Below, one piece after another: positions 274 to 17,742 of a stretch of 17,742 nt of DNA. The notes beneath the pieces are model-generated. The model was not told the origin of the DNA. It did no database searches and saw only the letters and a program-made list of their open reading frames with translations. Within the stretch, counting starts at the first letter, position 1; each line of letters starts with the position of its first letter. A program made the translations under genes and the position numbers. The stretch lies in contig JAQWAJ010000001.1 of the NCBI GenBank assembly GCA_028707745.1, positions 1 through 17,742 of the forward strand, read 5' to 3'. This DNA is from Bacteroidales bacterium (GTDB lineage Bacteria > Bacteroidota > Bacteroidia > Bacteroidales > UBA12481).

Positions 274-281
274 TATTTTTG
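274..281 (+). promoter_or_regulatory. Possible Bacteroidota -7 element for the M28 peptidase pair
   Basis: TATTTTTG fits the Bacteroidota -7 consensus TAnnTTTG exactly and lies 21 nt upstream of the ATG at 303. That would leave a short leader of about 15 nt. No good TTTG or TTG -33 box is found at 17-21 nt upstream; the nearest TTG (244-246) is 27 nt away. This is therefore only a candidate. Confidence 0.35.
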
Positions 282-302
282 TTAGGGTTGATCCTGATTA
301 CT

Positions 303-1901
303 ATGAAACGTCTCTCCCTGTTTTTCCTTTGTCTTTCCATTCTCCACCTACTTCTGCCGGCACAGGAACAACCTAAAGATAAAGGGTTGAAAACCATTAC
401 CGAAAATGCTCTTCAAGGGCCTTTGGAATTTTTATCCTCCGACTGGATGACCGGGCGTGAAACCGGAACCCAGGGTGAATATATGGCATCCGACTATATT
501 GCCAGTATGTTTAAGATCATGGGGCTGAAGCCGGGCGTAAATACAGGCTTTTTTACCCGAAGCTATTTTCAGAATATCAGTTTCATCCAGATCCGGCCGG
601 GGACCCGTCAGGAGTGCGCAATTATCAGGATGGATCAAGGCAGCCGTCAGCAGTTTAATCTTCATTATTCAACTGATTATAACATTATACCGGGAAGCCA
701 ATCTATTGAAAATGAGGGTCAGGTGGTATTTGTCGGATATGGGATTCAGGATAAAAAGCTCAGACATAACGACTTCAAAAACATCGATATAAAAGATAAA
801 ATCCTGGTCAGGCTTTTCGGTTACCCAGGATGGAGGTCGCCGGGATCGAAGAATTACAAGCGTTTCACTGTTGATGAACTATCCACGCTGAGATTGATTC
901 AGAAAGAAAAAGACCGCATTGCCCTGGCCGGAGGAGCTGTGGCGATCATTGAAATCAGAAAGGGATCAACTCAGTTTTCAGCAATTCCTGAAAACCTTCC
1001 TTTCAGATATAATTCTGACACCTATGAAGGAGATGTACCATTTTCCACCGAAATACCCTACCGTACGCTTCTGCAAGGGACATTTGCACCATCGCTGACC
1101 CGGATTACCTTGTCGAAGTCGTCTCTTGACCTGCTGATGAGCGGTTCAGAAATTGATTTCAATGACTATGAAAGCAGAGCGGCTGAAAAGAACATCACGC
1201 CTGAAGAGATGCCAACCGACCGATATCTTAAATTCGTCAGTGCAGTTGAAACACGCACCATCAGGGGAAGAAATGTCATTGGAATGATTGAAGGAAAGAA
1301 TCCGAACAGCTGTATGGTAATCGGTGCACACTATGACCATGAAGGAAAGACCAACGGATTTATCTATAACGGGTCGGATGACAATGCCTCGGGGACTGTC
1401 GGTATTCTGACCATTGCCCGTGCCATGATGGAGACCGGTGAAAAGCCTGATATCTCGCTGGTTTTTTGTGCCTGGACAGCTGAAGAAAAAGGACTCCTTG
1501 GTTCGAAGTATTATGGGGAGCATCCGGTGATCGATGACATTAAGTGTTATATGAATTATGACATGATCAGTCGGACTGATCCTGAAGATTCCACCGGCAT
1601 GCAGTGTGATTACACCTATTCATCAGGATTGCCCTGTTTAAAGGATCTGACCGAAAAACACCTCAAAGATTACGGAATACGGCTCAATCCGGCTTATCAC
1701 GCCGCTACCCGGCCTGAAGGGGGATCTGATTTTGTAACATTTTCAAAGAAGGGCATTCCAATCTTCCTGATACATGGAAAATTCACACCCGATTATCATC
1801 AGTTCACCGATCATGCTGAAAAAGCAGTAATGCCGTATATGACTGAAATCGTCAAACTGGGATATCTGAATATATATGAACTCGCTCACAGAAATTGGTA
1901 A
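303..1901 (+). CDS. Secreted M28 family zinc aminopeptidase with PA-type insert (first of a tandem pair)
   Basis: The protein is 532 residues. The start is the ATG at 303, which places a signal peptide (MKRLSLFF through LLPAQ) at the N-terminus; an upstream in-frame TTG at 279 would only add eight residues. A protease-associated-type segment begins near residue 141 (VVFVGYGI) and interrupts the peptidase fold, as is usual in this subfamily. All M28 metal and catalytic positions are visible: H343 and D345 in GAHYDH, D359/D360 in GSDDNASG, E394/E395 in TAEEKG, D420 in NYDMISR and H499 in DYHQF. The enzyme should bind two zinc ions and release N-terminal amino acids from peptides in the periplasm or outside the cell. 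The gene lies 15 nt before a paralogue and is probably cotranscribed with it. Substrate preference cannot be read from the sequence. Confidence 0.9.
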   Translation: MKRLSLFFLCLSILHLLLPAQEQPKDKGLKTITENALQGPLEFLSSDWMTGRETGTQGEYMASDYIASMFKIMGLKPGVNTGFFTRSYFQNISFIQIRPGTRQECAIIRMDQGSRQQFNLHYSTDYNIIPGSQSIENEGQVVFVGYGIQDKKLRHNDFKNIDIKDKILVRLFGYPGWRSPGSKNYKRFTVDELSTLRLIQKEKDRIALAGGAVAIIEIRKGSTQFSAIPENLPFRYNSDTYEGDVPFSTEIPYRTLLQGTFAPSLTRITLSKSSLDLLMSGSEIDFNDYESRAAEKNITPEEMPTDRYLKFVSAVETRTIRGRNVIGMIEGKNPNSCMVIGAHYDHEGKTNGFIYNGSDDNASGTVGILTIARAMMETGEKPDISLVFCAWTAEEKGLLGSKYYGEHPVIDDIKCYMNYDMISRTDPEDSTGMQCDYTYSSGLPCLKDLTEKHLKDYGIRLNPAYHAATRPEGGSDFVTFSKKGIPIFLIHGKFTPDYHQFTDHAEKAVMPYMTEIVKLGYLNIYELAHRNW

Positions 1902-1916
1902 ACAAATAACTCAACT

Positions 1917-3617
1917 ATGAAAAAACAGATTCGTTTTATCTTATTGGCTGGAGTGTTGCTTGGCTTTGCACTGCCGCAATATGCCCAGGAGAGCGCCAGA
2001 GACAAAGGCTATCAGTCAATCACTAAAGAAGTTCTTCAGGGCCAGCTGGAATTTCTTGCCTCTGACTGGACCGAAGGCCGTGAAACAGGAACCAAAGGTG
2101 AATATATGGCAGGTGATTATATCGCCAGTCTATTCAAAATGTACGGCTTAACGCCTGGTGGTGATCTGGAACCCATGCGGCTTGACCGCAGACCCAGGAC
2201 CAGTGGCGGTGGAGCCCCACAACGTCTGGAACCTAAAAGGACCTATTTTCAGAATATCAATTTTATCGAATCGTCACCGGGAGCAACTCAGGAGATGAGT
2301 ATCATTACTAAAAACGGTGCTGGATCTAGATCCGTTGATTTTGAATATCAGACTGATTTTTCGGTAAATGCAGGTCAGGTAGGCACCGAAATGGAGGTTC
2401 CGATTGTATTTGTAGGTTACGGTTTGGTCGATGAAAAGAACGGTTATGATGATTTCAAAGGGGTTGATGTTAAAGGCAAGTTTGTGATCAAACTAAACGG
2501 ATTTCCGGGATCAAAGGATGTCAATTCCAAAGCTTACGCAAAATTCAAACCCAAGATGGATCCGAATGATCAGAGTGGCCGCAGACAATTTGGTCCCGGA
2601 GGACCTGGTGGATGGAGCCGCTATGCCTGGGCGAATCAAAGAGGGATCGTAGGTGTCGTTGAATACCGGCCAGGATTTGACCCAACCTCACAGTGGGCTA
2701 AAAATGTGCCTTTCCGCTACAACTCCGCAACTTACGAAGGTGATGTTCCCCAGCCCCGAAATCAGAAATCTTACTCAATCATGGGTGATTCTCTTAAAAA
2801 CGATGCTATGTCGATCACGATTACTGAAAGGGTAATGAATGAGATTATCAACGGTTTGGGAATTGATTTTGCCGCAATTGAAAAACAAATTGCAGAAACC
2901 GGCAAGCCAGCTTCACGCGAACTGACCGGAAAGTTGATCCGCATTAAGACTACTGTTGAATCGCGCATTGTCAGGGGTCGGAATGTAGTCGGTGTCATTG
3001 AAGGCAAAAACAAAGACGAGATCATCGTGATTGGCGGGCATTACGACCATCAGGGAAAACAGAACGGGTTCATTTTCAATGGAGCCGATGACAACGGTTC
3101 AGGAACCGTTGGGGTGATGACTGTTGCAAAAGCCATTAAAGAATCCGGAATCGTTCCGGAAAAAACGCTGGTTTTCTGCGCCTGGACCGGTGAAGAAAAA
3201 AACTTGCTTGGATCGAAATATTTCGCCAATCATCCATACAAAGAGAAGATGCTTTGCTACCTAAATTACGACATGATATCGAGAAACAGCACCGGCGAGG
3301 ATCAGGACAATAAAATTGAAATGACCTTTTCAAAAAAATTCACGGTATCTAAAGAATTGATCGAAAAGTTCAATAAAGAGATGAATATGGGGCTGGAAAT
3401 CGATTTCCAGGGAGACTCAGAACAGCCTGGAGGGGGAAGCGACCATGCTCCATTTGCTCAAAAGGGTGTACCTATCTATTATTTTATGGCAGGAATGCCG
3501 CCGGAATATCACAAATTCGGCGACCACGTTGAACTCGTTAACTGGGATAAGATGTTAAAAATCGTTCAGCTGGGTTATCTGAGTATTTTCGAATTGGCCC
3601 AGATGTCGTGGAATTAG
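1917..3617 (+). CDS. Secreted M28 family zinc aminopeptidase with PA-type insert (second of a tandem pair)
   Basis: The protein is 566 residues with a signal peptide (MKKQIRFILLAGVLLGFALPQYAQ). It is collinear with the preceding protein over almost its whole length, for example LQGxLEFLxSDW near the N-terminus and IRGRNV/VRGRNV before the catalytic part, so the pair arose by gene duplication. The M28 ligands are intact: H375 and D377 (GGHYDH), D391/D392 (GADDNGSG), E426/E427 (TGEEKN), D452 (NYDMISR) and H532 (EYHKF). The PA-type segment begins near residue 163. Two insertions set it apart from its neighbour: an Arg/Pro/Gly-rich stretch at residues 83-107 and a Gly-rich loop at about 215-236 (GPGGPGG). 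It ends 37 nt before a strong terminator that closes the unit. The duplicates probably differ in peptide preference; that is inference. Confidence 0.92.
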   Translation: MKKQIRFILLAGVLLGFALPQYAQESARDKGYQSITKEVLQGQLEFLASDWTEGRETGTKGEYMAGDYIASLFKMYGLTPGGDLEPMRLDRRPRTSGGGAPQRLEPKRTYFQNINFIESSPGATQEMSIITKNGAGSRSVDFEYQTDFSVNAGQVGTEMEVPIVFVGYGLVDEKNGYDDFKGVDVKGKFVIKLNGFPGSKDVNSKAYAKFKPKMDPNDQSGRRQFGPGGPGGWSRYAWANQRGIVGVVEYRPGFDPTSQWAKNVPFRYNSATYEGDVPQPRNQKSYSIMGDSLKNDAMSITITERVMNEIINGLGIDFAAIEKQIAETGKPASRELTGKLIRIKTTVESRIVRGRNVVGVIEGKNKDEIIVIGGHYDHQGKQNGFIFNGADDNGSGTVGVMTVAKAIKESGIVPEKTLVFCAWTGEEKNLLGSKYFANHPYKEKMLCYLNYDMISRNSTGEDQDNKIEMTFSKKFTVSKELIEKFNKEMNMGLEIDFQGDSEQPGGGSDHAPFAQKGVPIYYFMAGMPPEYHKFGDHVELVNWDKMLKIVQLGYLSIFELAQMSWN

Positions 3618-4512: not shown

Positions 4513-6924
4513 GTGAATACCAATATACTTAAGTACATTTTCATGCTATGCAGCCTGATTCTGCCTATATCCCTTTTTCAGCCGGCAATGGCGCAGAGCT
4601 CCGGGCGAATCGAAGGACTGGTGAAAGATGCAAACAACAACGAACCGCTGCCGTTTGTAAACATCATTGTTAAAGGAACTCAGATTGGAACGACGAGTGA
4701 CCTTGATGGTAAGTTCATTCTGACCGGTTTGGACCCCGGCTTTGTCACTTTGCAGGCTTCATTTGTCGGGTATGAAACCGGATATTCCCCGGAGGTTCAG
4801 GTTACGAATGCCAATGTCGCATTCGCTGAAATCAAGCTATCGGCGAAAGAAAAGTTGCTGGGCGAAGTAGTGGTCAAACCCTCGCTGTTCCGAAAGACCG
4901 TAGAGAGCCCTGTTTCGTTGCAAAGAATCGGTGTCAGTGAAATTGAGACCAATCCGGGAAGTAACCGGGATATTTCCAAAGTAATCCGGTCGTTTCCGGG
5001 CATTGGGTCTGGCGCCAGTTTCCGCAGTGACATTATCGTCCGCGGAGGGGGGCCGAGTGAAAGTCGTTTCTACCTCGACGGGGTAGAAATTCCAAACATC
5101 AACCATTTTGCCACCCAGGGAGCTTCCGGCGGGCCGGTTGGGATCATCAATGCCGACTTTCTCACCGGGGTCAATTACTATTCCGGAGCGTTTCCTGCCA
5201 ACAGAGGGAATGCTTTGAGCGGTGTATTCGAGTTCACACAACTTGACGGAAATCCCGAAAAGTTAAAGTACCGTGGAACCCTCGGTGCATCTGAACTCAG
5301 TTTAACTGTCGATGGCCCGATAAACGATAAAACAACTTTGATATTCTCTGTCCGGAGAAGCTATTTGTCAATGCTCTTCGACCTGATCGGGCTTCCGTTT
5401 CTACCCACATTCAATGATTATCAGATGAAACTGAAAACCAGGTTTAATCCCAAAAACGAATTATCCATCATCTCCATTGGGGCGCTTGACCAGTTTAAGC
5501 TCAATCTGGGAATTAAAAACCCGGATGCCCAACAGGAATATATTCTGGCCAACATACCGGTTAACGAACAGTGGAGCTATGCTATCGGAGGAGTTTATAA
5601 ACACTACAGCGACAAATCATTCCAAACAATCGTTCTTAGCCGGAACATGCTGAATAATCGAACATACAAGTACCCTGACAATGATGAGAGCAGACCAAAA
5701 GTTTTGGATTACACATCACAGGAAATTGAGAATAAGTTCAGATTTGAAAACAGCGCGCGGAAAGGTTCATATAAGTTGGTTTATGGGTTATCCGGAGAAT
5801 ATGTTAAATACAACAATGCGACATCGCAACAGATCTATGCCGACGGAGGCTTGCAAAGCATTAATTATAATACCGATATCAATCTTTTCAAATGGGGATT
5901 GTTCGGACAGGCGAGCAAAACTTTCCTCGACAGTCGGTTGACTACTTCTTTGGGGGTAAGGATGGACGCCAACGATTATTCATCCGGTATGAGCAATCCA
6001 CTCGATCAATTCTCACCCCGGCTTTCAGCCTCCTATTCTTTAACAGAGAAATGGAGTATCAACATGAATACCGGCCGGTATTTTCAATTACCTGCATATA
6101 CATCACTAGGATATAAGAATAGTGCCGGCGAACTGGTCAATAAGAGTAATAATCTGAAATACATTCAATCAGATCACTTTATTGTCGGCGCACAATATCA
6201 GCGAAATGAAAATTTCATCACATCGGTTGAAGGATTTTATAAAACTTACAGCAACTACCCGTTCTCCGTCAGGGACAGTATCAGTCTGGCCTCAAAAGGA
6301 GCCGATTTTGGTGTCATCGGAGACGAAGAGGTTACCTCAACCGGTAAAGGACGCGCCTTCGGATTTGAGCTCCTGAACCGCACCAAATTGGAAGAAACGT
6401 TGAAGTTAAACATCATTGTTTCCTACACCTTTGTAATTAGTCAGTATAAAGATCTCAGCGGGGATTATTTATCCACTAACTGGGACAACAAGCACATCTT
6501 CAACCTGACGGTTTTCAAGGGATTCCGGAAGAACTGGAGTGCCGGTATCAAATGGCGTTTTGTGGGCGGTCAGCCCTATACTCCTTATGATATGCAGTCG
6601 TCCTCACTGAAGGAGGCCTGGGATGTCACGGGTCGGGCCTTGCTTGATTATAATGAAATGAACTCATTAAGGCTTGCCTCGTTCCATCAGCTGGACCTTC
6701 GTGTGGATAAGCGTTTTTATTTCAATAAATGGTCGTTAATGGCCTATTTCGATATACAGAATGCCTATGGATTTAAAGCCGAGCAGCCTGATTATGTAGT
6801 CAGGAAAAAAGATGTAAATGGCAATTACATACTGGTTGACAACGGATTAAGATACCAGCTTCAAAGAATTCCTTCAACAGCAGGTACCGTGTTGCCGACG
6901 ATTGGGGTTATGATTCAGTTTTAG
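4513..6924 (+). CDS. TonB-dependent outer-membrane receptor with CarboxypepD-regulatory-like domain
   Basis: The protein is 803 residues. The start is GTG at 4513, 4 nt after the previous stop; it gives a complete signal peptide (MNTNILKYIFMLCSL to QPAMAQ), whereas the next ATG (4543) would cut off its basic part. Residues 31-120 form a carboxypeptidase-regulatory-like beta domain (GRIEGLVKDANNNEPLPFVN, then DLDGKFILTGL and FVGYET). The plug spans about 128-240, with SDIIVRGGGPSESRFYLDG as its clearest stretch. The rest is the 22-strand barrel, ending in VMIQF with the terminal Phe typical of outer-membrane proteins. It would import a ligand using TonB energy. It is shorter than usual SusC proteins and no susD lies beside it, so glycan import is less likely than import of a metal chelate or cofactor. 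The stop codon TAG overlaps the first unit of a G-rich heptad array. Confidence 0.9.
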   Translation: MNTNILKYIFMLCSLILPISLFQPAMAQSSGRIEGLVKDANNNEPLPFVNIIVKGTQIGTTSDLDGKFILTGLDPGFVTLQASFVGYETGYSPEVQVTNANVAFAEIKLSAKEKLLGEVVVKPSLFRKTVESPVSLQRIGVSEIETNPGSNRDISKVIRSFPGIGSGASFRSDIIVRGGGPSESRFYLDGVEIPNINHFATQGASGGPVGIINADFLTGVNYYSGAFPANRGNALSGVFEFTQLDGNPEKLKYRGTLGASELSLTVDGPINDKTTLIFSVRRSYLSMLFDLIGLPFLPTFNDYQMKLKTRFNPKNELSIISIGALDQFKLNLGIKNPDAQQEYILANIPVNEQWSYAIGGVYKHYSDKSFQTIVLSRNMLNNRTYKYPDNDESRPKVLDYTSQEIENKFRFENSARKGSYKLVYGLSGEYVKYNNATSQQIYADGGLQSINYNTDINLFKWGLFGQASKTFLDSRLTTSLGVRMDANDYSSGMSNPLDQFSPRLSASYSLTEKWSINMNTGRYFQLPAYTSLGYKNSAGELVNKSNNLKYIQSDHFIVGAQYQRNENFITSVEGFYKTYSNYPFSVRDSISLASKGADFGVIGDEEVTSTGKGRAFGFELLNRTKLEETLKLNIIVSYTFVISQYKDLSGDYLSTNWDNKHIFNLTVFKGFRKNWSAGIKWRFVGGQPYTPYDMQSSSLKEAWDVTGRALLDYNEMNSLRLASFHQLDLRVDKRFYFNKWSLMAYFDIQNAYGFKAEQPDYVVRKKDVNGNYILVDNGLRYQLQRIPSTAGTVLPTIGVMIQF

Positions 6925-6986
6925 GGCGAAGGGCGAAGGGCGAAGGGCGAAGGGCATAGGGCATAGGGCTAAGGGCATAGGGCGGG
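6924..6986 (+). repeat. G-rich heptad tandem array (GGGCGAA/GGGCATA) at the receptor 3' end
   Basis: Eight head-to-tail 7-nt units fill 6924-6979: four GGGCGAA, two GGGCATA, one GGGCTAA and one GGGCATA. They are followed by GGGCGGG (6980-6986). This gives ten G3 tracts on the + strand, eight of the nine gaps being 4 nt and the last 1 nt, so the array fits a G-quadruplex pattern. The first unit begins inside the stop codon of the receptor gene, so the array would be the start of its 3' untranslated RNA. Confidence 0.9.
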
Positions 6987-8912: not shown

Positions 8913-9479
8913 TCAAATGGCATCTAGCCAGAAATAGTCCCAAATATTCTTTCCGATGTCACACAGCCAATCGGCAACCAAATCAACAGATGCATGGGAA
9001 TTCACTTTGTTCTGGTCACCATAGGATTTCAAAAAGACAAATTGATATTTCTCAGCCTTTTCATTCCAGTACCATGCAGAAAACGTCCCGGTACCGGCAT
9101 CAGCCATGTAAATGCCAGTATCTATAATTTCGCCGTCGCGAAGGCTTTCAATATCCGCATAATACTTATCCATATCTTCTTCTTTAACAGTCAGATAAAG
9201 GGTGTCGCACTGAGCAAGATTATATTCAAGGTCACTCCGGCTCATCATCCCGGTTGAATCGGGCATTTTCCAGTTTTTCGGATTATTAAAACCACGTACT
9301 TTCCCGTTCCCTTCGATCAGAAATCCTAAATGTTTATATCCCCACGCGTAATTGAAATACTCGTACTGAAAAAGGACCGGATGTTTTTCGGCCTCATGGC
9401 ATCCGCAGTCTTGTTTTTTACAACTTGCCAGGCCAATAACCGTAATCAGCAGGATTGTGTAAAATATAGAGCGTTTCAT
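8913..9479 (-). CDS. Unrecognised Cys-rich lipoprotein between GH127 and SGNH genes
   Basis: The protein is 188 residues when started at the ATG at 9479; an in-frame ATG at 9497 would add six residues before it. The N-terminus MKRSIFYTILLITVIGLASC is a canonical lipoprotein signal with lipidation at C20. Right after it comes a cluster of cysteines and charged residues (KKQDCGCHEAEKH). The mature part is acidic and rich in Tyr and Trp (YEYFNYAWGYKHLGF, AWYWNEKAEKYQF), and the C-terminus ends in DIGKNIWDYFWLDAI. I do not recognise a family. The gene lies 28 nt after the GH127-type gene and 23 nt before the esterase gene on the same strand, so it is probably cotranscribed with both. Aromatic surfaces might bind sugars, but that is a guess. 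Confidence 0.8.
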   Translation of the reverse strand: MKRSIFYTILLITVIGLASCKKQDCGCHEAEKHPVLFQYEYFNYAWGYKHLGFLIEGNGKVRGFNNPKNWKMPDSTGMMSRSDLEYNLAQCDTLYLTVKEEDMDKYYADIESLRDGEIIDTGIYMADAGTGTFSAWYWNEKAEKYQFVFLKSYGDQNKVNSHASVDLVADWLCDIGKNIWDYFWLDAI

Positions 9480-9507
9480 TTTGGCTCGTTTAAACATTCA
9501 TACAAAT

Positions 9508-11877
9508 TTACTCTTTTTTCAGAGTTCTTACGCCGAAAACCGGTCCTGCCATGTGTCCCTTAAAAGCCTCGAATTTCACGGTAATTTTAGATTTCCCCTC
9601 GGTCAGATTGTGCTTAACAGGATACTCGATATCGATCCACTGGCCATCTTTAATATTGGTAATGTTTTCAGTAGCAATCACTTCGTTGTTAACCAGGATA
9701 TTAAAGGTTTTAGCACCGGGAAATCCTCCCCAGTATTCCACCATCAGTATATTTTCATGATCAGATGAGACTTTCATATCGAATGAGAACCAACCGCTTC
9801 TGGCTTCGCGGTTTTTGCGATCCTGGAACTCACCCGGAGTGGTCTTTTCGCCCTGGAAGTTGTGATTACGCTCAGGCTGCATTTCGCCAGGCTGCACAAA
9901 GTCGATGGTTCTGGATTCGATGACTGTTTTGCGGGCCAGCTCATTTTGATAATCTTCCTGACGTTTATCCCAGGCAGCCTGGGTAAACAGATCCCAGTAA
10001 ATGCTGTAACGCACATCATGAATTGCGTAGAATGGTTTCAGTTCAACGTCTTTCGGCTTTCCCACTCCATTCATCATAAAAGTATTTACTTTCCCATCCA
10101 CCGGTTTCAGCCAATCCGAAGGATTTCGCGATTCCGACATGATCACCGGAACAAACATCGGAGAAGCAGCTTCAGGATTGTCGATTGCCCCCAAATCTCC
10201 GGCAAGTACCAGTGGGCCATACATTATTGCCACCCGGGAAGAATCATCCGGCATAGGTTCGAGCCTCAGGCTAAATGGGAAACTAACCTCGACCCGGTCG
10301 CCATCTTTCCAGGTACGGTAAACGCTTACAAAGCTGGAAGGCTGGCTTTTTACTTTGACTTCCCTGCCATTTACCTTCACGATCATTCCATTTTTTGCCC
10401 AGTATGGATATCTGATCTGCAGATTCAGTTTGATGGGTTCTTTACAGGCAAAATCAAGTAAGGTCGATTGTTTATCCGGATATTGGGTTTTCTGGGTCAG
10501 TTTCAGTCCTTTTTCAGCCCAGTTCAGTTCCGATGCAATAAACTGTGTCACAAACAATTCCTGATCGTTTGAGTAATAGATGTTCTCTCCGTATTTGGCA
10601 TGATTTTCCATCCCGGTACCCACGCAGCAGGTAAAATCCTCATAAATCTGATATTCCTTATAGCCGCCCATTTTGAGTGCCAGATTATAGACAACTCTCC
10701 CATCTTCAGGATGTTGTGATGACAAAATATGATTAAACAATGCCCTTTCATAGAAGTCAGCCTCTGCCGGGTCGGCATTCCATTCAAAAAGATGCTCAGT
10801 CAGTTTCAGCATATTATACACATTGCAGGTTTCAGTAGTTCCCTGGCTAAGTCGGTTACGCAATTGGTCGGGTTTCCCCAGATATTCATTATTGCCGTTA
10901 CCGCCCGTAACATACGAATGGTGATTAACCACCCGATTCCAGAAAAACTCGGCAGCTTTCCGGTTCACAGTGTCTCCGGTAAGTTCATATCTGCGGGCCA
11001 TTCCAATCAACTTCGGGATGTTGGTATTGGCATGTTTTCCGGGAAGAATATCAATTCCGGCGGCGAGTGAATCCAAGATCACTTTATGATGAAATTTCTT
11101 CGCGTAATCCAGATATTTTTTATCGCCGGTGTCAGCTGACAGGTCTGCTAAAACCTCCATGATTCCTCCCTGTTCGCAACGCATCATTACCTGCATCTGT
11201 CCATCAGATAAGCCACTGATTATCATGCCAGTCCAATCACCCAATTTCCGTTCCACCTCCAGCGCTTTTTGGTTTCCGCATAGCTGATATGCATCACGAA
11301 GACCAGCCATATCTTTGTGAATGGTATACCACGGAACCCAGATCCCGTTCAGATCGAACCCCTGAGAACGGATATCCCCTTTTGCCACTTCTTCTTCCAT
11401 GATGCGCTTTCCATCAGGGAAAGCTCCTATAAAGCCATTCTTATTGGCATCCTGAACTATTGCCAGTTCATCCACGATATAATTTACCCTTTCCAGAAAT
11501 CTTTTATCGCCTGTCGACTGATACATCAAAGCGCAGGCGCTCAGGTAGTGACCCAGCGTATGCCCGGCAATGGTGCCATCTTCCCATCCGTGGTAATGTT
11601 CAGCTTTAGGAGTCAGCCCAGCCTCTTTATAGAATTTCGACAGCATTCGGTCGGGCTGATAATCGAGCAGGACTTTCTTATCCAGTTCCATTGCATGTTT
11701 GAATGGACCGTCAAGTAGTTTGACTTCATCGAGTCTGAATTTTTTCACCCTGAATGGCACCGCTTCTTTCGTTCCCTGAACCGAGCCGACAGGTGGTGTT
11801 GAGCTGCAGGAGACCAGCATCCAGGCGCCTGTGATCAGGCAGATTAATGATAAGATTGGGATGTTCGTGCGTTTCAT
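9508..11877 (-). CDS. Lipoprotein GH127/GH146-like beta-L-arabinofuranosidase (DUF1680 family)
   Basis: The protein is 789 residues from the ATG at 11877, which gives a lipoprotein signal with C24 (LVSC). A longer in-frame reading from 11952 would run into the tRNA terminator and the promoter, so it is rejected. The (alpha/alpha)6-barrel shows HYHGWEDGTIAGHTLGHYL near residue 95 and a GIWVPWYTIHK stretch. The zinc site of the family is present: E349 and C351 in TTETCN, and C417/C418 in FTCCVGTG, matching the Glu-Cys-Cys-Cys set of Bifidobacterium HypBA1, where the first Cys of the pair is the nucleophile. Beta domains follow, the last from about residue 690. The enzyme should release beta-L-arabinofuranose from plant glycoproteins or pectic chains. 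It is first in a unit with a lipoprotein and an esterase. The choice between GH127 and GH146 is uncertain. Confidence 0.92.
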   Translation of the reverse strand: MKRTNIPILSLICLITGAWMLVSCSSTPPVGSVQGTKEAVPFRVKKFRLDEVKLLDGPFKHAMELDKKVLLDYQPDRMLSKFYKEAGLTPKAEHYHGWEDGTIAGHTLGHYLSACALMYQSTGDKRFLERVNYIVDELAIVQDANKNGFIGAFPDGKRIMEEEVAKGDIRSQGFDLNGIWVPWYTIHKDMAGLRDAYQLCGNQKALEVERKLGDWTGMIISGLSDGQMQVMMRCEQGGIMEVLADLSADTGDKKYLDYAKKFHHKVILDSLAAGIDILPGKHANTNIPKLIGMARRYELTGDTVNRKAAEFFWNRVVNHHSYVTGGNGNNEYLGKPDQLRNRLSQGTTETCNVYNMLKLTEHLFEWNADPAEADFYERALFNHILSSQHPEDGRVVYNLALKMGGYKEYQIYEDFTCCVGTGMENHAKYGENIYYSNDQELFVTQFIASELNWAEKGLKLTQKTQYPDKQSTLLDFACKEPIKLNLQIRYPYWAKNGMIVKVNGREVKVKSQPSSFVSVYRTWKDGDRVEVSFPFSLRLEPMPDDSSRVAIMYGPLVLAGDLGAIDNPEAASPMFVPVIMSESRNPSDWLKPVDGKVNTFMMNGVGKPKDVELKPFYAIHDVRYSIYWDLFTQAAWDKRQEDYQNELARKTVIESRTIDFVQPGEMQPERNHNFQGEKTTPGEFQDRKNREARSGWFSFDMKVSSDHENILMVEYWGGFPGAKTFNILVNNEVIATENITNIKDGQWIDIEYPVKHNLTEGKSKITVKFEAFKGHMAGPVFGVRTLKKE

Positions 11878-11985: not shown

Positions 11986-12059
11986 CGGGTACGACGAGAC
12001 TCGAACTCGCGACCTCCGGCGTGACAGGCCGGCATTCTAACCAACTGAACTACATACCC
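11986..12059 (-). tRNA. tRNA-Asp (anticodon GTC)
   Basis: The 74-nt - strand sequence folds as a standard cloverleaf. The acceptor stem is GGGTATG/CGTACCC (one T-G pair), the D stem GTTC/GAAT, and the anticodon stem CCGGC/GCCGG around the loop CTGTCAC with anticodon GTC. The T arm has the loop TTCGAGT, and the discriminator base is G, as expected for tRNA-Asp. The 3' CCA is not encoded (CA follows the discriminator directly), so it must be added enzymatically. It delivers aspartate to GAC and GAU codons. Confidence 0.97.
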
Positions 12060-15727: not shown

Positions 15728-16099
15728 ATGCAACCGCACAAGATATTATTGGCTGAAGACAACAAGTTAATCCTGGAAACAATAGCCCGAAGTCTCACTC
15801 GTGAAGGTTATGAAATCCTCAAAGCTTATGACGGTAAGGAGTGCCTTCAGATTCTTGAAGGCCAGAAAGTTGATCTCATTATCACCGACCTGTTCATGCC
15901 TTTCATCAATGGGCATGAGGTTATTTCCACTCTTCGGAATGAACGGAAAGATCAGACTCCGATTCTGGTACTATCGGCCGGAGGAGGAGAAGAGAATGTT
16001 TTAAAAGCATTTGAACTTGGAGCAGATGATTTCATGGTCAAACCTTTCAGTTTGATGGAGCTTAGTGTAAGAGTAAGAAAGTTACTGGCCAGTAAATGA
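15728..16099 (+). CDS. Stand-alone CheY-like response regulator
   Basis: The protein is 123 residues and consists only of a receiver domain. The acidic pocket is E10/D11 (LLAEDN), the phospho-acceptor is D54 (LIITDLFMP), and the switch residues are S83 (VLSAGG) and F102, with the invariant K105 in VKPF. No DNA-binding or enzyme domain follows, so the output must pass through protein contacts. The stop codon overlaps the start of the next gene in ATGA (16096-16099), so the two are probably translationally coupled. No histidine kinase is in the window. The natural partner is the HEAT-domain membrane protein next door, or the synthase behind it. The 162-nt upstream gap holds no convincing promoter; TTG (15652) and TATTTATT (22 nt later) are weak matches. 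Confidence 0.93.
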   Translation: MQPHKILLAEDNKLILETIARSLTREGYEILKAYDGKECLQILEGQKVDLIITDLFMPFINGHEVISTLRNERKDQTPILVLSAGGGEENVLKAFELGADDFMVKPFSLMELSVRVRKLLASK

Positions 16100-17508
16100 T
16101 AGCTCTAAAAGATCTTGCCATGTTACACACGCTTGCCGTTTTCTGTGTAATCACAATGGTTTTCCTTCCTCATGAAGCGCTGGCTCAGGAGCCAGTGATC
16201 AGAAATGATTATTATGAAATTTCACCTGATAAAAATCCGGATTCGCTAAAAGCTTCCCAAAATACCGGTACAACTAAGGCAAACTCTTTTTCTGGCATCC
16301 CGGGTAAAAGTTCATCCTACAAATCCGAACACTTGTTTCAGCGGATTTTGGGAATCAACAATCTCAAACTATTAAAGAAGGATTTGACTGAATACGGTAA
16401 CAACCATCTGCCCCCTTTCATGCGCCGGGTCTTTCTGGAGATAGTCCACAAAAGCTTCACCTATCCCATTGTATTTCTTATTATTACACTTATCCTGGTT
16501 TTACTTATTAATAGCATAACAGTCATTATTATACTGCGATACACCAATCATCAAAAGAACAGAAGAGAACGGTACATAAATATTTATCAAACCCGTTATG
16601 AAGAAGTTCTTTCCGGTTATCTGTTTCATGATATCGATTGGAATACCGCGTTCATCCTGATAAAAAAGAAAAAAAAACTACTGAACAGGAGAATTCTGAT
16701 TTCTGTACTCAGCAATTTTCAGGAGAACCTCAGGGGTGATTTCGATAGTCAGATTCAGGAGATTTTCATCAATCTTGGCTTACAAAGCTATGCAGTCAAG
16801 CTCATAAAATCGTCCATCTATTATAAAAAGGTATCCGGTATCAGGCAATTGACCCTTTTAAATCCAAAAGGCGCATATCATTTTATCGAACCATATCTTA
16901 ACAATTCAAATAATCTGGTAAGAGCAGAAGCGCAGGCTTCATACATCGTTTTGCGGCCTGAAGATCCTTTCTGTTTTTTAAAAGATCTGACCCGGCCTTT
17001 TAACCGATGGACACAACTTACGGCATTTAACCTCTACCGCAGTTATCAGCTAAAGGTTCCGTCGTTTGTGCAATATCTGAAATCAGAAAACATCAATGTC
17101 AGAAATTTCAGCTTAGTCATGATAACTTATTTTCAACAGGTTGAAAATTCACCGGTTATATTAAAAATGCTTGAAAGTCCTCAAGAAACAACCCGTTTTC
17201 ACTGTATTCGCGCCATAAACGACCTTCTTCTGTACGAAGGAAGAGAATTGATTAAAAGCAGGTATCCGTTTGAAACCAGGAAAAACCAGATAGAAATTAT
17301 CAAAACTCTCAGAAACATCGGAAACCAGGAGGATTTTGATTTTTTAGAAAACATTTTTCTGACAGGCTCAGTGACAGCCCGTACAGAAGCATGCAGATCG
17401 CTGTATTTTATCAGCGATGAAGGTCATCAAAGATTGATCAAAATGAAAGAGAATACAGATCTGAACCTTGAACAGTATTTAGCCCATATAACTGATCCCA
17501 GAAACTAG
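16096..17508 (+). CDS. Membrane protein with HEAT-like cytoplasmic repeat domain
   Basis: The protein is 470 residues. The start at 16096 overlaps the upstream stop by 4 nt. A signal peptide or first helix (about 9-30, ending HEALAQ) leads to a periplasmic, Ser/Lys-rich region (31-122). A long transmembrane helix follows at about 124-148 (YPIVFLIITLILVLLINSIT), then a basic linker. The rest (about 155-470) is an array of paired helices that reads like HEAT/Armadillo repeats, with alternating hydrophobic and Lys/Arg/Asn positions, such as NNLVRAEAQASYIVL and ENINVRNFSLVMITYF. These repeats would face the cytoplasm and bind proteins. The A6-G-A9 run at 16662-16677 encodes five lysines. The neighbouring receiver and GT2 genes suggest a coupling role in polysaccharide synthesis, which is inference. 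Confidence 0.88.
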   Translation: MIALKDLAMLHTLAVFCVITMVFLPHEALAQEPVIRNDYYEISPDKNPDSLKASQNTGTTKANSFSGIPGKSSSYKSEHLFQRILGINNLKLLKKDLTEYGNNHLPPFMRRVFLEIVHKSFTYPIVFLIITLILVLLINSITVIIILRYTNHQKNRRERYINIYQTRYEEVLSGYLFHDIDWNTAFILIKKKKKLLNRRILISVLSNFQENLRGDFDSQIQEIFINLGLQSYAVKLIKSSIYYKKVSGIRQLTLLNPKGAYHFIEPYLNNSNNLVRAEAQASYIVLRPEDPFCFLKDLTRPFNRWTQLTAFNLYRSYQLKVPSFVQYLKSENINVRNFSLVMITYFQQVENSPVILKMLESPQETTRFHCIRAINDLLLYEGRELIKSRYPFETRKNQIEIIKTLRNIGNQEDFDFLENIFLTGSVTARTEACRSLYFISDEGHQRLIKMKENTDLNLEQYLAHITDPRN

Positions 17509-17519
17509 CCGATACCCAA

Positions 17520-17742
17520 TTGGACATTATTAGAACCATATTTGAGACCTTCTTTTTTTATTATGCAATTTGCATTTTAGGGGCCTATTTTGTGCTCGCT
17601 ATTATTTCTGCCCAAACTTTAAAAAGAAACATTAATCGCTCAATGATAACTCATTACGATGCGATTATTTCATCGCCATTCTCACCTTTGATAACAGTGA
17701 TTGCCCCGGCGTATAATGAGTCGATGACCATCGTCGAAAACA
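17520..17742 (+). CDS. Membrane GT2 glycosyltransferase, N-terminal part (3' end outside window)
   Basis: Seventy-four codons are visible. The start is taken as TTG at 17520, 11 nt after the preceding stop. An in-frame TGA at 17493-17495 and the absence of ATG or GTG between them leave TTG as the only plausible start that keeps the N-terminal helix. The protein begins MDIIRTIFETFFFYYAICIL, a transmembrane helix at about 8-30. It then reaches SPLITVIAPAYNESMTIVEN (55-74), the first beta strand and nucleotide-sugar loop of GT-A family 2 enzymes. Processive synthases of the PgaC/IcaA and cellulose type start in this way. The order with a response regulator and a HEAT protein suggests regulated exopolysaccharide synthesis at the inner membrane. 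The DxD and QxxRW motifs lie outside the window, so processivity is not shown. Confidence 0.85.
   Translation, partial: MDIIRTIFETFFFYYAICILGAYFVLAIISAQTLKRNINRSMITHYDAIISSPFSPLITVIAPAYNESMTIVEN

Follow-up and report, generated by a model that had tools for sequence, protein, structure and literature searches.

A receiver-HEAT-GT2 operon of Bacteroidia as a candidate phosphorelay-controlled polysaccharide secretion system

Introduction

The described systems closest to the locus reported here are the Bcs cellulose system of E. coli (BcsABC, BcsZ, and BcsG), whose gene functions serve below for comparison, the PgaABCD/IcaADBC systems for PNAG, the E. coli YaiO-YaiP-YaiS genes, and, for a single enzyme, LtaS, OpgB, and VP1736 (PDB entry 3lxq). 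The switch of the Bcs, Pga, and alginate systems is c-di-GMP. Receivers without output domains are also known: EpsW of Myxococcus is a single-domain receiver that controls exopolysaccharide, and stand-alone receivers of the Spo0F and DivK types act as relay intermediates or phosphate sinks. To our knowledge, how biofilm polysaccharide synthesis is controlled in bacteria without c-di-GMP is an open question.

The DNA analysed here (the window) is the entire contig C399, 17,742 bp in length. The operon at its end resembles the Bcs system in having a membrane GT2 with D, DxD, ED, and QxxRW motifs, a TPR plus beta-barrel exporter, a phosphotransferase that appears to work with the synthase (the BcsA-BcsG3 entries 9fmv, 9fmz, and 9b8v are among the fold matches of the L029 GT2 protein), and a glycoside hydrolase gene. 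It differs from Bcs in that no BcsB was seen and no PilZ domain was matched by Pfam in the one GT2 protein scanned (that of L016), a HEAT membrane protein and a receiver being present instead; in addition, the barrel is of YaiO type, the hydrolase (in the window's genus) is GH16 as opposed to the GH8 of Bcs, and the HEAT-positive genomes sampled in the same class contain no GGDEF. With PgaABCD/IcaADBC it shares a TPR-barrel exporter and the nearest named GT2 family by profile, but the GT2 scores far below the family cut-off, no deacetylase or PgaD was found among the genes scanned, and YaiO stands in place of PgaA. A GT2 gene next to a YaiO barrel gene is also seen in YaiO-YaiP-YaiS of E. coli, where we know of no HEAT, receiver, or LtaS-like gene and of no assigned function; the two YaiO proteins scanned here differ by their N-terminal TPR part. 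The putative phosphotransferase is similar to LtaS, OpgB, and VP1736 in combining a membrane part with a sulfatase-fold domain that carries E, Thr, and D-H at the LtaS catalytic positions, but it is encoded in a Gram-negative operon setting, often adjoining or fused to the GT2. As in the case of EpsW, a CheY-like receiver is tied to exopolysaccharide genes; unlike EpsW, this receiver belongs to a conserved unit that also comprises the synthase itself and a HEAT membrane protein.

As far as could be seen, each part of the operon comes from a known family, and the novelty lies in their combination into one unit, in how widely it occurs, and in the way it is probably controlled. Among the matches listed by a full-text literature search, judged by titles and the first lines of abstracts, no description of the operon was found (most subscription journals lie outside the coverage of that search), and six terms had no occurrence in the word-searched text of PMC7112194.

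General features of the window

The source genome is fragmentary (67% complete, 440 contigs). A three-gene run at the contig end, spanning positions 15728-17742, consists of the following genes:

15728-16099, plus strand: stand-alone receiver (single-domain response regulator), 123 aa; Pfam Response_reg, 5.5e-28
16096-17508, plus strand: bitopic HEAT protein, 470 aa; HEAT_2 profile, hydrophobicity, and AlphaFold model
17520-17742, plus strand: 5' part of a membrane GT2 polysaccharide synthase gene, running 74 codons from its TTG start to the contig end

The receiver and HEAT genes overlap by 4 nt (ATGA), and the TTG start of the GT2 gene lies 11 nt after the HEAT stop codon; the coordinates and overlaps given in the preliminary description, as well as the receiver residues D54 and K105, proved exact.

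Elsewhere in the window, two M28-family peptidase genes lie side by side at 279-3617, perhaps as a tandem duplication. The heptamer AGGGCGA is repeated in tandem (8.9 copies) at 6923-6984, beginning at the stop codon of a TonB-dependent receptor gene, and a tRNA gene (11986-12059, minus strand) is located between a GH127 (beta-L-arabinofuranosidase) gene and a phosphoesterase/beta-propeller gene.

The HEAT protein

The HEAT protein scored 29.6 bits against HEAT_2, slightly over the curated Pfam cut-off of 27.7. It contains two hydrophobic segments, one at the N-terminus (residues 7-25) and a membrane segment at about residues 128-146. Because a basic stretch follows the second segment, we infer from the positive-inside rule that the solenoid is cytosolic. 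In the AlphaFold model (58 aligned sequences, mean pLDDT 87), residues 24-76 are of low confidence, a long helix (124-176) encloses the membrane segment, and a helical solenoid extends to the C-terminus, with block-mean pLDDT values mostly of 95-98 from about residue 140 onward. The best Foldseek matches in the PDB were engineered repeat proteins, alphaRep, armadillo, and PP2A-type solenoids, with modest TM-scores (0.23-0.40 by query length), and a profile search against PDB sequences agreed with this result, yielding 24 matches, mostly to alphaRep (best, 2.4e-30). The HEAT-like fold that had been claimed from the reading frame is thus upheld by a confidently predicted all-helical solenoid and a HEAT_2 score above cut-off.

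In locus L021, the HEAT protein (8972-10954) contains a SPOR domain (Pfam) N-terminal to the membrane helix. The HEAT proteins of L019 and L023 have a similar N-terminal SPOR region by sequence likeness, and several database relatives list PF05036, which hints that the periplasmic side of these HEAT proteins may bind the cell wall. No further Pfam domain was detected in five other long HEAT proteins that were scanned. Long HEAT proteins of 724-931 aa are encoded in L140, L142, and L144; in these, the HEAT core is N-terminal and is followed by a C-terminal extension, for which the only Pfam hint was a weak HEAT match in L140.

The GT2 synthase

The 74 GT2 codons of the window gave, by themselves, no significant Pfam match. 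Because the window holds the N-terminus only, the identity of this gene rests on relatives, and over this part it shares 66-67% identity with the GT2 of G004, a genome of the same genus. The motifs D91, D167/D169, E275-D276, and Q318/R321/W322 are invariant in all 111 GT2 sequences collected (109 distinct); the QxxRW motif, which the preliminary description expected beyond the contig end, is therefore present in the relatives together with the other processive-synthase motifs. A model of the GT2 from L029 (Maribellus; pLDDT 85), whose C-terminus extends about 25 residues beyond the last helix, matched the folds of hyaluronan synthases (8.4e-15), chitin synthases, and E. coli BcsA in BcsG complexes (1.3e-12). 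BcsA, for comparison, bears a PilZ domain at its C-terminus that binds c-di-GMP.

PgaC_IcaA was the top NCBIfam match of both GT2 proteins scanned (8.5e-37 and 2.5e-38). This match and the TPR plus beta-barrel nature of the exporter would fit a variant Pga system in which a PgaC-like enzyme produces poly-beta-1,6-GlcNAc. The scores, however, were 127.1 and 132.1 bits against a cut-off of 422.3, and because they lie so far below it the GT2 was not assigned to PgaC. Furthermore, neither a PgaB deacetylase nor PgaD was present among the genes scanned in the operons of L016 and L020, the barrel is of YaiO type, and the operon in the window's genus encodes a GH16 protein, a family that acts mostly on beta-glucans and galactans. 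We therefore regard a variant Pga system as improbable.

Conservation of the gene order

Relatives were collected with a GT2 profile, since the HEAT protein query alone gave no relative, and the best 80 of 584 confirmed candidates were analysed. Going by their titles, all but one of these 80 loci are from Bacteroidota, the exception being L071, which is labelled Armatimonadetes, perhaps through a binning error. Cultivated organisms that have the operon include Draconibacterium, Polaribacter, Pedobacter, Flavobacterium, and Pontibacter. A HEAT gene is located immediately upstream of the GT2 gene on the same strand in 76 of the 80 loci (median gap, -1 nt); the four exceptions are L037 and L071, which lie at contig ends, L064, and L053, where the GT2 stands without HEAT or receiver. 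A receiver gene is present within 6 kb of the GT2 in 72 of the 80 loci, 71 of them on the same strand. These 6-kb counts were made on all reading frames because greedy ORF calling hides some genes, e.g. the receiver of L027. Among the eight loci that lack a receiver within this distance, six have <1.7 kb of sequence upstream of the GT2, and L075 has a weaker match directly upstream of HEAT. The receiver directly precedes HEAT in 36 of the 76 loci (median gap, 20 nt), with L027 as one more, and YaiO lies between the two in 26. For comparison, single-domain receivers of like score account for 10 of 630 ORFs located farther out in the same 80 loci, a rough figure because all distances were taken from one fixed point and a few of the loci are incomplete.

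In a sample of 395 genomes from across the phylum, the HEAT profile had matches in 107, many of them weak. Excluding the window's own genome, 20 of the 25 strongest matching places, from 19 genomes, were examined, and GT2 is the next gene in every one of them. Seventeen of the 20 have a receiver no more than 6 kb away; in the other three, it is found at 6.06 kb on the other strand (L147), as a weaker match directly upstream (L149), or the contig ends 0.9 kb upstream (L152). Close relatives of the source genome gave HEAT matches in 13 other genomes, of which 11 were examined: GT2 adjoins HEAT in 10 (in L019 it is truncated where the contig stops), 8 of the 11 have a receiver at a distance of 6 kb or less, and L024 has a HEAT relative with no GT2 beside it. 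Two loci are present in two sets each (L025/L058 and L093/L153). Conserved adjacency of the three genes in related genomes, which the preliminary description had left for genome comparison, is thus borne out in both the GT2-found and the HEAT-found loci.

L077 (Flavobacterium degerlachei) and L139 each contain two consecutive HEAT-GT2-YaiO sets, which suggests either that two polymers are made or that the synthase was duplicated. A protein of 386-401 aa is encoded beside the operons of Pedobacter and other relatives (L052, 13720-14877; L147, 4613-5797; L025, 5113-6315); it has a hydrophobic N-terminus, as judged by eye, and no Pfam match, and is possibly a further operon component.

Genes downstream of the synthase

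The full set of receiver, HEAT, GT2, YaiO, sulfatase-fold membrane protein (670-674 aa), and GH16 genes is present in two genomes of the window's genus, G004 and G006. In G004 (L016), Pfam identified YaiO (2.9e-65), the sulfatase-fold domain (1.2e-30), and GH16 (1.2e-20). The orthologues in G006 (L017) are in the same order with 55-77% identity, YaiO, the sulfatase-fold protein, and GH16 being at 66-69%. In the window's own genome, the other half of the operon is on contig C377 (4,581 bp). C399 and C377 are separate contigs and were left unjoined, with a gap of about 2.2 kb as estimated from G004. The genes on C377 are as follows:

First 235 bases: last 77 codons of YaiO
243-2291: sulfatase-fold (LtaS-like) gene, following YaiO
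2288-3418: GH16 gene, overlapping the sulfatase-fold gene by 4 nt

A YaiO-type porin had been guessed to follow the synthase, and it does so both in the same-genus genomes and on C377; the polysaccharide deacetylase guessed at the same time was not found among the operon genes scanned, and an LtaS-like phosphotransferase and GH16 are there instead. The YaiO proteins of L016 and L020 bear an N-terminal TPR part, in keeping with an outer-membrane beta-barrel exporter that has a periplasmic TPR portion. Among the best 80 of the 584 loci, 68 have YaiO at most 6 kb from GT2 (52 on the same strand), whereas an LtaS-like gene is within this distance in 33, so that the LtaS-like gene looks accessory. 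GH16 was found within 6 kb in none of these 80 loci with a profile built from two sequences. The GH16 protein on C377 shows the motif EIDIE, which we take to fit the GH16 active-site pattern.

The best PDB match of the sulfatase-fold protein was the uncharacterised VP1736 (1.4e-25), and LtaS was matched at 5.3e-5. By sequence, the protein appears to be nearer to LtaS/OpgB-type enzymes than to sulfatases, and its score against the NCBIfam lipoteichoic acid synthase equivalog was 39.6 bits versus a cut-off of 970. In an alignment of 48 sequences, the LtaS catalytic positions are occupied by E in 45 (D in 3), T in 43 and S in 3, D in 43, and H in 46, and Thr is lacking at the nucleophile position in five; we assume that these positions have the same roles as in LtaS (E, Thr nucleophile, and D-H metal ligands). 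Eight of 111 loci encode the LtaS-like protein and GT2 as a single fusion, so that the two presumably share a task, as BcsG and BcsA do in E. coli. Taken on their own, the catalytic residues and the eight fusions might mean that the two enzymes make a lipid-linked product, lipoteichoic acid-like or a glycolipid, and not a secreted polysaccharide. Against this stand the processive-synthase motifs and hyaluronan/cellulose-synthase fold of the GT2, and the fact that the exporter accompanies the synthase about twice as often as the LtaS-like gene does; a lipid-linked product thus seems improbable, and a secreted polysaccharide is the reading adopted below.

The receiver and its partners

Pfam found Response_reg alone in the window's receiver, with no output domain, and the acidic pair E10/D11, D54, S83, and K105 are all in place. 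All 82 operon receivers, including that of the window, retain D54 and K105. In a tree of 160 receivers from the studied loci, 81 of these 82 fall into one group (support, 0.77), which also takes in 12 of the 78 other receivers; by our reading of their positions, 11 of the 12 belong to operon loci proper as well, being on the other strand, at another spacing, or second copies. The window contains no kinase gene close to the receiver. In 13 of the best 80 loci (of 584), the receiver is immediately preceded by a receiver-bearing ORF (632-1793 aa). Domain scans of three large ORFs identified HisKA-HATPase-REC-Hpt in L060, one of these 13, and in L142, and a kinase with two receivers in L146; L041 contains REC-Hpt-REC in a single protein, with the Hpt match slightly below cut-off. 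It is likely that a phosphorelay controls the polymer.

HEAT co-diverges best with GT2 (partial correlation, 0.40-0.44), and we consider it quite likely, a little more so than control by a phosphorelay, that the HEAT protein is a partner of the GT2. The partial correlation between receiver and HEAT was -0.09 (97 loci) or 0.07 (76 loci, YaiO included) with identity distances over whole matches, and 0.20 (interval, 0.03-0.39; 76 loci) with tree distances on the HEAT core. The receiver correlated better with GT2 (0.24-0.47) and with YaiO (0.45-0.46). The latter correlation hardly reflects contact, because YaiO is an outer-membrane protein, and it shows the limits of the co-divergence test. No fusion of receiver with HEAT or of HEAT with GT2 was found in 111 loci. 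The preliminary description had read the unit as a signal-controlled synthase with a receiver that docks on the HEAT solenoid and gates the enzyme: the synthase motifs and gene adjacency argue for the first part, and the docking and gating can be put forward only conditionally, co-divergence of receiver and HEAT being weak or none and fusions being absent from these loci.

The weak or absent co-divergence of receiver and HEAT would also fit the same secretion system with a receiver that does not gate it but, in the manner of Spo0F and DivK, serves a transcription-controlling kinase as a relay intermediate or as a sink for phosphate, with HEAT as an assembly scaffold of the GT2 only. The intervention of YaiO between receiver and HEAT in 26 of 76 loci points in the same direction. 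However, the receiver directly precedes HEAT, at a short distance, in 36 of these loci, and nearly all operon receivers share one tree group with 12 others; a non-gating receiver is in our view unlikely, though it is the most serious of the alternatives. Direct contact of the receiver with HEAT or GT2 is our best single guess, held tentatively.

c-di-GMP background

A search for GGDEF (PF00990) among 60 close relatives gave one positive genome; the 14 HEAT-positive ones, which include the window's genome, were all negative. In the phylum sample, 203 of 395 genomes contain GGDEF, but within the window's class, which we read as Bacteroidia from the named relatives, these are only G096 and G225, both HEAT-negative. 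GGDEF was absent from all 45 HEAT-positive genomes of the class; in this set, the HEAT match is weak in three cases and includes stops in some others, and the neighbouring GT2 was checked for 19 genomes. The same GGDEF search was positive in 8 of 14 control genomes. Since GGDEF is rare class-wide, its absence is a trait of the class and does not single out operon holders. Better HEAT matches (E up to 1.1e-19) were obtained in eight genomes outside the class, of which five contain GGDEF (G063, G152, G156, G287, and G299) and three do not (G105, G120, and G349); several outside-class genomes with weaker HEAT matches also have it. Control without c-di-GMP, as the preliminary description had suggested, fits these counts, in which the lack of GGDEF is a background and not a proof.

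Proposed mechanism and significance

The best explanation of the window is that it carries half of a synthase-dependent polysaccharide secretion system of Bacteroidia, namely the genes for regulation and for the synthase, and that the receiver acts by contact on the HEAT-GT2 pair, a proposal that we rate, as a whole, at about even chances. Gene order, motifs, predicted folds, conservation, GT2-LtaS-like fusions, and GGDEF counts are its observed part. In this system, the GT2 would polymerise a sugar nucleotide and pass the chain through the inner membrane, with the bitopic HEAT protein as its standing cytosolic partner. The receiver would be phosphorylated via a hybrid kinase/Hpt phosphorelay encoded elsewhere in the genome and, once phosphorylated, would contact the HEAT-GT2 pair and set synthase activity, in place of the c-di-GMP of Bcs and Pga. 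The LtaS-like enzyme may decorate the chain with a phospho-substituent, the TPR/YaiO barrel would carry it across the outer membrane, and GH16 may trim or release it. The product, the phosphorylation, the contact, and the direction of control are what we infer from the observed features. The narrower version, in which a widespread Bacteroidia machine has its phosphorylated receiver dock on the membrane HEAT subunit and so switch a processive synthase, while a synthase-coupled LtaS-like transferase decorates the chain, is advanced with more reserve, as a possibility somewhat short of even.

The operon is a concrete candidate for polysaccharide control without c-di-GMP, the HEAT-positive Bacteroidia sampled showing no GGDEF. 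If the proposal is true, phosphorelay signalling would fill in these bacteria the role that c-di-GMP has in the Bcs, Pga, and alginate systems.
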